Of a stretch of 45,170 bases of DNA, positions 20,348-24,488 are shown piece by piece (the first letter of the stretch is position 1; every line of letters starts with the position of its first letter). The DNA comes from a virus. Below the pieces are notes generated by a model that was given only the letters and a program-made list of their open reading frames with translations, ran no database searches and had not been told where the DNA came from. Made by a program: the position numbers and the translations under genes. The stretch lies in the IMG/VR virus record IMGVR_UViG_3300037487_000837, positions 1 through 45,170 of that record, one strand, 5' to 3'.

Positions 20348-21713
20348 AGCTGTAGAGTTTGTACTTACTCGAGGGTCAGGACAGTTATGGCTAGACCCAG
20401 GATTAGGTAAGACAAGTATCATATTGCAAGCCATTAGATCACTATTAAATGCAGGCACTATTAAACGTGTGTTAGTGGTTGCGCCATTACGACCTTGCTA
20501 TGTAGTGTGGCCTGATGAAATCACTAAATGGGATAACTTTTCAAGCCTGTCTATTAGTGTGCTGCATGGCCCTGAAAAGAACAAGCGGTTAATGGACAAA
20601 TCATTGATCCATGTGATCAACTATGAAGGCTTACGATGGTTGTCTGCTACACTACGAAAAACAGGACAATCATTCCCGTATGACATGCTGATTGTTGATG
20701 AAATAAGCTACTTAAAAAACACTCGAACACAGCGATTTAAAACACTGGTGCCATTCTTAGACAAGTTTAGCCGTCGTATAGGGTTAACAGGGTCACCTGC
20801 GCCTAACTCATTGTTGGACATATTTGGTCCTCAATTAGTGATTGACAGAGGTGCAACGTTTGGTAAGTATGTCACTCATTTCAGGTCAGAATACTTTTAT
20901 GCAACAGGCTTTGGTGGGTATACATGGACACTGCAAAAAGATGCAGAGGATAAAATACATGCTAAATTAGCAGACAAAGTGCTTAGAATGAGTGCTGAGG
21001 ATTACTTAACACTACCTGAGATCACTACAAACAAGGTGTTCGTTGAGTTGCCAGCCAAAGCGATGAAGCTATACAAAGAGCTTGAAGATAATCTAATGGC
21101 TCAAATAGACAACAATGAAGTGTCTGCAGTGAACGCAGCAGTGGCTGTAGGTAAATGTCAACAGCTTGCCAATGGTGCAGTATACGTCGATGGTACAGAA
21201 CGTACTCATACTGTAGTGCATGATGAAAAGATCATCGCAGTTCGTGAAATTGTGGAAGAACTATCAGGACAGCCTTGCATTATTGGGTATCACTTTCAGC
21301 ATGACCTATTAAGACTTAAAGCAGAGTTCCCTAACGCACCAGTGCTAGGTGCAGGTGTTGATGGTGATGAGCTCATACAGTTGGTACAGTCATGGAATAA
21401 CGGTGAAATAGAGGTGCTATTAGCGCACCCTCGTAGTGCAGGACACGGACTAAACTTACAAGGCGCAGGTCATGCAGTGATCTGGTTCTCTAACACATGG
21501 TCACTTGAAACATACGAACAGTTTGTCCGAAGACTTTGGAGACAAGGACAACGAAACAATATTATTGTTCATCAACTAATTGCAAGGCACACTGTTGATG
21601 AAGCAATTGTAGCAGCACTTAAACGTAAAGATGGAACACAGCAAGCCCTTTTAAACGCAATTAGAGATTATCGAACAACAACAACAGGAGACCAACATGA
21701 TGCAAATAAGTAA
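20316..21713 (+). CDS. SNF2-type DEAD-box helicase
   Basis: A 465-residue superfamily 2 ATPase. It shows a Q-like 'HQYQLKAVEF', Walker A DPGLGKTS (27-34), DEIS box (128-131), motif III-like 'LTGSPAPN', and a second RecA domain ending in 'SAGHGLNLQGAGHAVIWF' and 'QFVRRLWRQGQ' (motifs V and VI). SNF2-like phage helicases such as T4 UvsW remodel forks and recombination intermediates. It follows two nuclease genes with overlaps and probably works with them. The start overlaps the VRR-NUC gene by 32 bp. Confidence 0.88.
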   Translation: MRWTPHQYQLKAVEFVLTRGSGQLWLDPGLGKTSIILQAIRSLLNAGTIKRVLVVAPLRPCYVVWPDEITKWDNFSSLSISVLHGPEKNKRLMDKSLIHVINYEGLRWLSATLRKTGQSFPYDMLIVDEISYLKNTRTQRFKTLVPFLDKFSRRIGLTGSPAPNSLLDIFGPQLVIDRGATFGKYVTHFRSEYFYATGFGGYTWTLQKDAEDKIHAKLADKVLRMSAEDYLTLPEITTNKVFVELPAKAMKLYKELEDNLMAQIDNNEVSAVNAAVAVGKCQQLANGAVYVDGTERTHTVVHDEKIIAVREIVEELSGQPCIIGYHFQHDLLRLKAEFPNAPVLGAGVDGDELIQLVQSWNNGEIEVLLAHPRSAGHGLNLQGAGHAVIWFSNTWSLETYEQFVRRLWRQGQRNNIIVHQLIARHTVDEAIVAALKRKDGTQQALLNAIRDYRTTTTGDQHDANK

Positions 21714-22158
21714 AACACCAAGAGTATATATTGCAGGACCTTTCTTTAATGAGCATCAGATTGAGACCATTGAGGACATAAAAGAGGTGCTTGACCATTT
21801 AGACCTGATCTACTTTAGCCCTATGGACGAATGTATGTATGTCCCAGGTGAAACACCTATTGATCAAATCCTAAGAGATAACGTTGAAGCCATGCATAGT
21901 GCTGATCTACTAATATGTGTGACCGACGGCAAGGACCCTGGTACAATCTTTGAAGCAGGTTGGTGTTATGCAATGGGTAAGCCAATTATTTATATCTGGA
22001 GGACACGACAAGAAGGTCAGAAGTTTAATTTAGTCCTTGCATCATCTGGGTCTGTTGTACAAACACTAGGGTCTCTAACCGAAGCGCTTGAAGATATTAT
22101 GACAGAAGGCGTGTTCATACAAAAGAACTACGACAATGAAGGTATGCATTATGAGTAA
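21697..22158 (+). CDS. Nucleoside 2-deoxyribosyltransferase-like protein
   Basis: A 153-residue protein with the family's N-terminal 'VYIAGPFF' strand-loop (10-17), a 'SADLLICVTDG' segment (D70) and the catalytic-Glu region 'DPGTIFEAGWCYAMGKPI' (E86). The family transfers deoxyribose between bases or hydrolyses (deoxy)nucleoside monophosphates. This fits salvage or removal of host nucleotides together with MazG-like, HD and phosphoribosyltransferase genes here. AGGAG precedes the start. The substrate is not predictable from sequence. Confidence 0.8.
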   Translation: MMQISKTPRVYIAGPFFNEHQIETIEDIKEVLDHLDLIYFSPMDECMYVPGETPIDQILRDNVEAMHSADLLICVTDGKDPGTIFEAGWCYAMGKPIIYIWRTRQEGQKFNLVLASSGSVVQTLGSLTEALEDIMTEGVFIQKNYDNEGMHYE

Positions 22159-23275
22159 ACGACAAAAGAAGGACGGGTTGTTTCGAGTGTATAAAATTGA
22201 GTGTATGGTGACAAGAAAGTGCTATATTGGGTTAACAAGTTTGCCGTTAAGTAGAAGATGGGATTACCATGTAGGCTATGCAGAACCTACTGCTAAAAGC
22301 CCATTACATCGAGACATTGATCTATTTGGGCCGGCAGCTTTTGTGATTACTGAACTTGATGCGCTTAAAGATAAAAGTGAAGCATATAAGATCGAAGAAC
22401 AATTTATTATCTCTTGTGGGACGTTACACCCGATGGGGTACAACAAAGGGATTACCGGACCTTGTAATAATGGACAACAACGCACTGTATATGAATACGG
22501 CTCTCCTGAAGGTGCAAAATATGCATACTTTTTTGTTACTGCAGAAGGGCAGCAAGTACTTGAAGAGCTAAAAGAAAACAAACAGCTTGATAAGTTCGAT
22601 AAAGCGCTACATAAACACCCTAAAATTAAAGAACAACAACGAATTCATAATGAACTAGAATCTACTCGACGAAAGCACATGCAATATGAATCATATATGC
22701 CACAAATTGACTCATACATGAAAAAGATCTACTCACTTGATTTTATTCATCGGTACCCAATGGTCCCAAGAGCGCATAAAGAGTCTGTTGCATCACATTC
22801 TTATTTTGTAGCAATGTATGTGCTACTATTGGATGATGTATATACGTTTAGTCTCGATAGAGCGTTACGAGCAGCAATTGTTCACGACGTGTTAGAAGCA
22901 GAACTAGGCGATATTTCATTTTCAACAAAGAAGCAGTTCCCAGATCTTGCAAAAGCAATACATTCGGCAGAAGTACAATGTCTTAAGTTGCAACCGGGCA
23001 AAATAAAAAGAGCATACAACACATTGAAACACAATACAGTAGAGCGAGACATTGTAAAATTAGCAGATCTGTTACAAGTTCGCCAATACGCTACTGTAGA
23101 GATGTCAATGGGAAACAAAGGGTACATTGAAGAAGTGTATTTTGGATCAAATCAAAGAATTAAAGAACTAGAAGAAAAATTAAAACCGCATAGACGATTG
23201 CATGGTCATTCTAAACGAACTATTGATAAGATGACTCCTAACATTTCAACTGATGAAGACGAGGAACTTAATTAG
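22151..23275 (+). CDS. GIY-YIG nuclease fused to HD-domain 5'-nucleotidase-like protein
   Basis: A 374-residue two-domain protein. Residues 10-100 are a GIY-YIG nuclease: 'VYKI' and 'CYIGLT' strands, Arg35/36, His40, 'LHRDIDLFG', Glu near 78, and 'GYN' (97-98 region). A charged linker follows (about 110-190). Residues 195-320 are an HD hydrolase like YfbR: 'RYPMVPR' (R201), H216 in 'SHS', H245-D246, E249, 'GDISFSTK' and D306 in 'LADLLQ', each lining up with YfbR metal or substrate residues. YfbR removes phosphate from deoxynucleoside 5'-monophosphates. The ATG at 22151 (GAAGG upstream) overlaps the preceding stop. The fusion is one uninterrupted frame. Both catalytic sets look intact. Confidence 0.82.
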   Translation: MSKRQKKDGLFRVYKIECMVTRKCYIGLTSLPLSRRWDYHVGYAEPTAKSPLHRDIDLFGPAAFVITELDALKDKSEAYKIEEQFIISCGTLHPMGYNKGITGPCNNGQQRTVYEYGSPEGAKYAYFFVTAEGQQVLEELKENKQLDKFDKALHKHPKIKEQQRIHNELESTRRKHMQYESYMPQIDSYMKKIYSLDFIHRYPMVPRAHKESVASHSYFVAMYVLLLDDVYTFSLDRALRAAIVHDVLEAELGDISFSTKKQFPDLAKAIHSAEVQCLKLQPGKIKRAYNTLKHNTVERDIVKLADLLQVRQYATVEMSMGNKGYIEEVYFGSNQRIKELEEKLKPHRRLHGHSKRTIDKMTPNISTDEDEELN

Positions 23276-23566
23276 ATGACTAACATTGATGAAATACTCG
23301 AAGAACGAGGCAGTAAATACGGTGACTTTGGTGCAGGATCAGAACTTGAAGCAAACATGCTGGAGATGATTGCAATCAACTGTGAAGTACAGACAGGCAC
23401 ACCTATGGATTTTAGATCACTTATATGGGTGTCTAAGATTATTATGAAACTATCAAGAATTTCAGTGACACCCTCACATTTGGATAGCTGGGTTGACATT
23501 GAAGGATATGCACGACTAGTAGTATTACAACTTAAAAAGGAGTTAGACAATGACCAAAGTAACTAA
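23276..23566 (+). CDS. DUF6378-like small phage protein
   Basis: A 96-residue protein with 'ILEERGSKYGDF' near the N-terminus and 'MKLSRI...DSWVDIEGYARLV' near the C-terminus, the pattern of small phage proteins of the DUF6378 type, often beside nucleotide-metabolism genes. It is helical, with acidic residues that could bind metal as in all-alpha NTP-PPases, but that link is uncertain. GAGGAA upstream; starts right after the previous stop and overlaps the ThyX-like gene. Confidence 0.65.
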   Translation: MTNIDEILEERGSKYGDFGAGSELEANMLEMIAINCEVQTGTPMDFRSLIWVSKIIMKLSRISVTPSHLDSWVDIEGYARLVVLQLKKELDNDQSN

Positions 23567-24488
23567 AGCACAAATGCCTCAGCTACAAAAGATGCACACA
23601 ACACTAAAGTTCGGTAACCCACTCACAGATGCCGAGTTTGTTAATCAACTAGAGGCGATTGATGTGCAGATAGTGCATGCACCTACAATAGAGCAGTTTA
23701 GAAAGACTATTGCGGTGTTCTTAATGAATACGTGGAATGACAAGATCCAGACTGAATTCGATGAAAATGATATTGATCAAACAATCGATGAGCTGTTTAA
23801 GTTTGAGTTGCTACCAACAGCAATGGAAACAATTGACATTACATGGTCAGTGAATGGCATGGATATGATTGACACTACGCACTTAATTAGACATAGACTA
23901 TTTAGCTTCTCTGCCCAAGTGCATGGTGACCGTGATATGAGAGATGATCGAGTGATGGTTAAACCAACTATTATGGCACAACCTGAGTTCTATGAGCGAT
24001 ATAAATTCATTACAGAAGCTGCTAGAGAGCTGTACGTGGACATGGTTGACAGTGGTAAGATACATGGGTTAGATGCACGTACAATTATGCCTAGAAACTT
24101 TGAGCACTTCTATATGGTGCGATGCAACATCAAAGATCTTATCGGATATTGTGTATTACGAGGAGATGAACAAATACAAACGACTGTAGATAACATCATC
24201 GCAATGAAGTTGTGGGTAGAAGTCCTCAAACTGTACCCGTTCTTGAAAGATCTTGTCGACTTTAGAAAGCCAGACGCATTTTATCAACGACAATGTGCTA
24301 AAGGCAAGACTAATATATTCCCACCAAACGCTAAGAATGATACATTCGACTGGTGTGAAGAACAGTTCTACCATAACAAAGGGCGCGATGAATATGTAGG
24401 CAGTGAGACATATTTAGCTATGCGTGAAGATCTATTAAATCAAATTGACAGTGTAGTGAAAGTACATACACATAAGTTAGGGGCATAG
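23550..24488 (+). CDS. Divergent ThyX-family (flavin-dependent thymidylate synthase) protein
   Basis: A 312-residue protein. ThyX features are visible: 'HLIRHRLFSFSAQ' (RHR at 114-116), a helical 'YKFITEAARELYVDMV' segment and 'IMPRNFEHFYMVRCN', equivalent to the substrate-binding Asn/Arg helix. ThyX uses FAD and methylenetetrahydrofolate to make dTMP from dUMP. The canonical RHR-X7-S motif is altered: position 8 after RHR is Val124, and the Arg expected two residues later is Gly126 ('VHGDRD'). It is also longer than the usual 220-250 residues. It may be a subfamily with a different product or substrate. AAGGAG upstream. A dCMP deaminase in the same block would supply dUMP. Confidence 0.75.
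   Translation: MTKVTKAQMPQLQKMHTTLKFGNPLTDAEFVNQLEAIDVQIVHAPTIEQFRKTIAVFLMNTWNDKIQTEFDENDIDQTIDELFKFELLPTAMETIDITWSVNGMDMIDTTHLIRHRLFSFSAQVHGDRDMRDDRVMVKPTIMAQPEFYERYKFITEAARELYVDMVDSGKIHGLDARTIMPRNFEHFYMVRCNIKDLIGYCVLRGDEQIQTTVDNIIAMKLWVEVLKLYPFLKDLVDFRKPDAFYQRQCAKGKTNIFPPNAKNDTFDWCEEQFYHNKGRDEYVGSETYLAMREDLLNQIDSVVKVHTHKLGA

Follow-up and report, generated by a model that had tools for sequence, protein, structure and literature searches.

The window we analyzed is a single metagenome-derived virus record of 45,170 bases that contains tailed-phage genes for a terminase, a portal protein, a DNA polymerase, and a primase. On its plus strand, positions 22151-23275 form one stop-free frame that codes for a protein of 374 aa, and the uninterrupted frame claimed in a preliminary description of this DNA holds, with no internal stop. 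The predicted protein joins a GIY-YIG catalytic domain (residues 11-98, 22181-22444) through a linker (residues 106-187, 22466-22711) to a YfbR-like HD phosphohydrolase domain (residues 188-345, 22712-23185). Immediately upstream on the same strand is its conserved partner, a gene for a nucleoside 2-deoxyribosyltransferase (NDT, 21697-22158; Pfam PF05014, 3e-17), whose stop overlaps the start codon of the fusion at 22151. Two plus-strand genes follow, one for a DUF6378 protein (23276-23566; Pfam PF19905, 8.6e-7) and one for a ThyX-like flavin-dependent thymidylate synthase (23550-24488, named from sequence alone), and both are downstream neighbors in related phages as well. The start at 22151 follows an AAGGT by seven bases, a better ribosome site than that of an alternative in-frame ATG at 22136. 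The ATGs at residues 177, 183, and 190, from which a stand-alone HD protein might be made, have no clear ribosome site. GC content and third-position GC of the GIY-YIG part resemble those of the neighboring genes.

The N-terminal half has the features of a GIY-YIG nuclease. The Pfam GIY-YIG model matched residues 13-86 with an E-value of 9.4e-5 and a score of 23.1 bits, which barely exceeds the cut-off of 22.6. In the PDB, a profile of this half hit the catalytic domain of I-TevI (5.6e-14) and aligned Y14, Y25, R36, H40, and N98. An alignment with 31 viral GIY-YIG sequences shows no variation at Y25, G27, R36, H40, or E82 and very little at Y14 and N98; E82, invariant in 32 sequences, aligns with the position mutated (E75A) in 1mk0. 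AlphaFold predicted a GIY-YIG fold for residues 11-98 (pLDDT 93-98), with I-TevI as the best PDB match (TM 0.81 by target). The domain thereby combines the Tyr-Tyr-Arg-(His/Tyr)-Glu-Asn set with the alpha/beta fold of the GIY-YIG nuclease superfamily, and the Pfam match, the I-TevI profile match, and the predicted fold all agree with the N-terminal GIY-YIG domain and His40 named in the preliminary description. The best matches of this half in PHROGs are homing endonucleases. After the catalytic Asn, the sequence reads 'GITGPCNNG' in place of the usual 'GGEG'.

A linker of ~85 residues joins the two domains. It is helical in the predicted models, and a long helix runs from it into the HD domain. 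We found no NUMOD or other DNA-binding Pfam domain in residues 99-187 at E-values up to 10, and the fusion shows no recognizable counterpart of the C-terminal NUMODs or HTH of GIY-YIG homing endonucleases. Active homing is doubtful for this reason, although 'unorthodox' GIY-YIG members without NUMODs exist and the module is not an absolute criterion (PMC1564403). An Rfam search detected no group I intron around the GIY-YIG part. Among related phages we found no stand-alone form of the same GIY-YIG gene. The GIY-YIG domain and linker used as one query returned no relatives, and none of the 80 loci kept from a narrower GIY-YIG alignment search had the HD domain or the linker. A phage tblastn match of Vibrio phage VP-1 to residues 8-231 was rejected as a second fusion, as it is supported only over the GIY-YIG domain (residues 8-98).

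GIY-YIG domains also occur elsewhere in sister phages and in other phages. The sister phage records G002 and G003 each have a stand-alone GIY-YIG-like gene, in the minus frame (L264, ~1435-2050; L265, ~1453-2040); these two genes code for ~200 aa, have NUMOD3-like repeats by eye, and lie directly before a gene resembling that for the terminase small subunit. Terminase large-subunit ORFs of Vibrio phages contain a GIY-YIG domain (L084, 495-2711, MH363700.1; L170, MG592609.1), and the VP-1 terminase large-subunit ORF has a weak intein-splicing match as well.

The C-terminal half was assigned to the YfbR-like family with more room to spare. The Pfam YfbR-like model matched residues 189-341 well past its cut-off (E 6.7e-16, 58.9 bits). 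The profile aligns R201, H216, H245-D246, E249, D254, and D306 with E. coli YfbR, which bears out the preliminary alignment of H216, H245-D246, E249, and D306, and none of them varies across 23 HD sequences. The AlphaFold model is all-helical, with pLDDT mostly ~90 or more, and matched YfbR, lin2634, and 1xx7 in the PDB. This half thus has the H...HD...E...D...D metal site, the Arg, and the all-helical fold of PF12917. The preliminary description had proposed structure prediction as a check on both active sites; in our models, which were predicted from separate alignments for the two halves, each half keeps its fold and catalytic residues.

We examined which substrate the HD half might use. 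YfbR takes phosphate off dNMPs. The best PHROG match of the HD half is PHROG 7076, labelled dATP triphosphohydrolase (1.8e-20), and its sequence is nearer to YfbR (1.2e-12) than to DatZ (1.4e-5). DatZ takes the triphosphate off dATP and selects its substrate with the pair Trp20/Ile22 (PMC8065100). By count after the conserved Arg, the corresponding residues of the fusion would be Tyr202 and Met204. A homolog of PurA/PurZ (Adenylsucc_synt) was not found in the window or in 13 sister records, which are possibly fragments, while control genomes were positive. With the family closer to YfbR and no PurZ homolog found in these records, we rejected a DatZ role in a Z-genome. HD-family genes in unrelated phages lie beside or near genes for thymidylate synthase, pyrimidine hydroxymethylase, or NDT, and these genomic neighbors fit a predicted role in deoxypyrimidine metabolism. 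An unannotated stretch of Listeria phage LIS04 (L181, 301-819) contains an open frame for an HD phosphohydrolase.

We compared the locus with those of related phages. A ThyX search gave 102 relatives, of which the best 80 (76-85% identical) were kept; wherever the contig reaches, these carry NDT, HD, DUF6378, and ThyX in that order. The same order was seen in ~80 loci found through the HD domain. The HD gene stands alone, at ~170 aa, in more than 100 related IMG/VR loci, and none has a GIY-YIG domain in front. The presence/absence polymorphism typical of homing endonucleases is therefore seen here, with the GIY-YIG domain missing from the same junction in all of these relatives. Among the relatives listed without an insert, the ATG of the HD gene overlaps the NDT stop (TATGARTRA); this in-frame overlap, TATGA[AG]T, was read from junction sequences and gap lengths, with 40 of 51 distinct junctions listed. 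The window keeps this overlap (TATGAGTAA, 22150-22158), but it is the GIY-YIG domain, not the HD domain, that starts there. Unrelated inserts of 190-450 nt occupy the NDT/HD junction in other relatives (L002-L004, L005-L006, and L107), which marks the junction as a place of gene insertion.

Other irregularities were seen in these loci. In one subgroup, inserts of ~240-1200 nt separate HD from DUF6378 (L070, 4400-5760; L071; L076; L074; L078), and at least the one in L070 contains repeated small ORFs whose shared start is 'EPVAW' and in which 'KAQEK' recurs at the end. The deoxyribosyltransferase match is ~100 nt longer in L035 (716-1246) and L036 (3154-3684) than in relatives, which suggests that the gene contains an insert in frame. 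NDT-HD-ThyX is also present on a contig from a Euryarchaeota MAG (L262, PBHZ01000014.1), which may be phage DNA that was binned with the archaeon.

The HD half does not share the history of its neighbors. At matched ThyX distance, the HD domain of the window is 40% (38-48) identical to those of relatives, whereas the relatives are 69% (62-80) identical to each other. No such gap appeared in the same comparison for NDT (53 vs 56) or ThyX (80 vs 84). In the NDT and ThyX trees, the window is nested among its relatives with L086 outside. In the HD trees, the window falls outside L086, and also outside L096 and L151 once these are added. An AU test on the HD tree rejected nesting of the window (p 0.009), though branches in this tree are long and the position of the window's HD is not fully secure. 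The conflict in tree position between the HD half and both flanking genes is strong but not final. The low identity and the discordant trees suggest that the source of the HD half, if not of the whole fused gene, was another phage lineage, and that the resident HD gene was probably displaced by a GIY-HD allele or by a foreign HD half. Fast evolution after the fusion could account for part of the outlier status of the HD half.

We searched for further proteins with this architecture. A broader HD pattern, which could miss HD domains with a diverged motif, retrieved 183 viral HD relatives. None of the best 80 of these matched the query before residue 159, and a second search gave the same result; a fusion outside the best 80 is unlikely because it would score higher. 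Scans of viral contigs with the fusion or HD alignments and a phage tblastn search revealed no second GIY-HD fusion. A search of 84,980 prokaryote genomes also found none, with one match that covers HD only. The preliminary description had called for a check of co-occurrence; both Pfam domains do occur in one 374-aa protein, and this is the one genome from which the fusion is known. We know of no described protein that combines GIY-YIG with a YfbR-like HD domain. None was found in the open-access literature, where absence proves little, and within the sequences and papers covered here the architecture appears to be unique and not yet recorded. Other fusions of GIY-YIG to unrelated domains have been described, and a survey of the family cautions that an isolated case may be a product of mobility rather than function (PMC1564403). 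Homing endonucleases sit near essential genes, and domains are shuffled between them and other genes, in phages too (PMC10448857).

We consider it probable that a GIY-YIG domain of the homing-endonuclease type was captured in frame before the HD domain of a conserved deoxynucleotide operon. Most likely, a mobile nuclease gene made this capture once, and the protein is not a new machine for recycling DNA. The GIY-HD allele would have arisen in another phage lineage, or in this one with a foreign HD half, and recombination in the flanks would have swapped it for the resident HD gene, possibly driven by the nuclease's own cutting. The HD part would still do its routine work, taking phosphate off dNMP or dNTP in a metal-dependent reaction, and could feed deoxynucleosides to the NDT/ThyX pathway. 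The GIY-YIG part would be a selfish passenger that may still nick or cut DNA, or that may have lost its target, as the lack of a recognizable DNA-binding module would allow. Fusion would shield it from loss, because deleting the GIY-YIG domain also deletes the start of the HD gene. Read as a capture, the locus would show clearly how the start codon of a metabolic phage gene can pass to a mobile-nuclease domain, while more than a hundred sister loci still keep the ancestral arrangement. It would illustrate how parts are swapped among phage nucleotide operons and how the deletion of a selfish nuclease can become difficult.

The preliminary description had offered two readings, a homing endonuclease captured beside a nucleotidase and a protein that cuts DNA and dephosphorylates the released dNMPs. 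Capture is the better supported of the two, given the I-TevI/Seg type of the GIY-YIG half, the insertion point at the junction, and the stand-alone GIY-YIG genes in sister phages. As endonucleases, GIY-YIG enzymes set no dNMPs free, none of the other genomes found pairs the two domains, and HD stands alone in all relatives; the second reading is not supported. The same facts, with no second case in the search that found the viral HD relatives, make it unlikely that selection acted on the fusion as a whole, with the nuclease cutting host, competitor, or plasmid DNA while the HD domain acts on nucleotides in the same place. Such a bifunctional enzyme would agree with the completeness of both catalytic sites and with an operon that handles deoxynucleotides, and YfbR and DatZ form high oligomers (PMC8065100), so that the fusion could present several nuclease domains together. 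We likewise regard as unlikely an HD phosphohydrolase oligomer that carries several GIY-YIG domains and both cleaves DNA, such as that of the host or of a competing phage, and controls the nucleotide pool locally. Coupling of nuclease and nucleotidase is a weak idea with no support beyond the fusion itself, but linked activities would make the protein a new kind of phage DNA-metabolism enzyme.

It is conceivable, though doubtful, that the GIY-YIG domain has lost its ability to cut or target DNA and is simply tolerated as an N-terminal extension of the HD enzyme. The linker without a recognized DNA-binding module, the marginal Pfam score, and the altered motif after the catalytic Asn point this way, but the fold and all GIY-YIG catalytic residues are kept, which would be unlikely long after function was lost. 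An assembly or binning artifact, with a GIY-YIG stretch that is foreign to the genome or not really in frame, is highly improbable. The fusion comes from a single metagenome-derived record with no second copy; against an artifact, the frame is open over 1122 bases, the GIY-YIG domain begins precisely where the expected gene would, and its base composition is like that of its neighbors. Both flanks and the downstream HD domain are those expected at this locus, which makes it unlikely that the assembly is chimeric at the fusion.

We compared the fusion to known systems. Like the YfbR-like HD 5'-deoxynucleotidases (E. coli YfbR, PF12917), it has the HD fold with all metal and phosphate residues aligned, and like the phage members of that family it sits in a nucleotide operon. 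It differs from YfbR in having Tyr202 where YfbR has a Trp after the conserved Arg, and in its extra N-terminal domain. The fusion resembles DatZ from phages with 2-aminoadenine DNA by its best PHROG match and a fold match, but DatZ is encoded with PurZ and the sequence of the fusion is closer to YfbR. With the I-TevI and Seg homing endonucleases it shares the catalytic domain, its residues, the I-TevI fold, and a position at the border between genes of a nucleotide operon. Unlike them, it has an enzyme as its C-terminus in place of a detectable DNA-binding module and is not intron-borne. ICP1 Odn (Gp88) is a chimeric phage nuclease of the GIY-YIG superfamily (PMC8263062). Odn and the fusion both combine a homing-endonuclease-type domain with a captured foreign domain at a locus with alternative genes, but the partner in Odn is a DNA-binding domain that provides the target, whereas the partner in the fusion is a metabolic enzyme.
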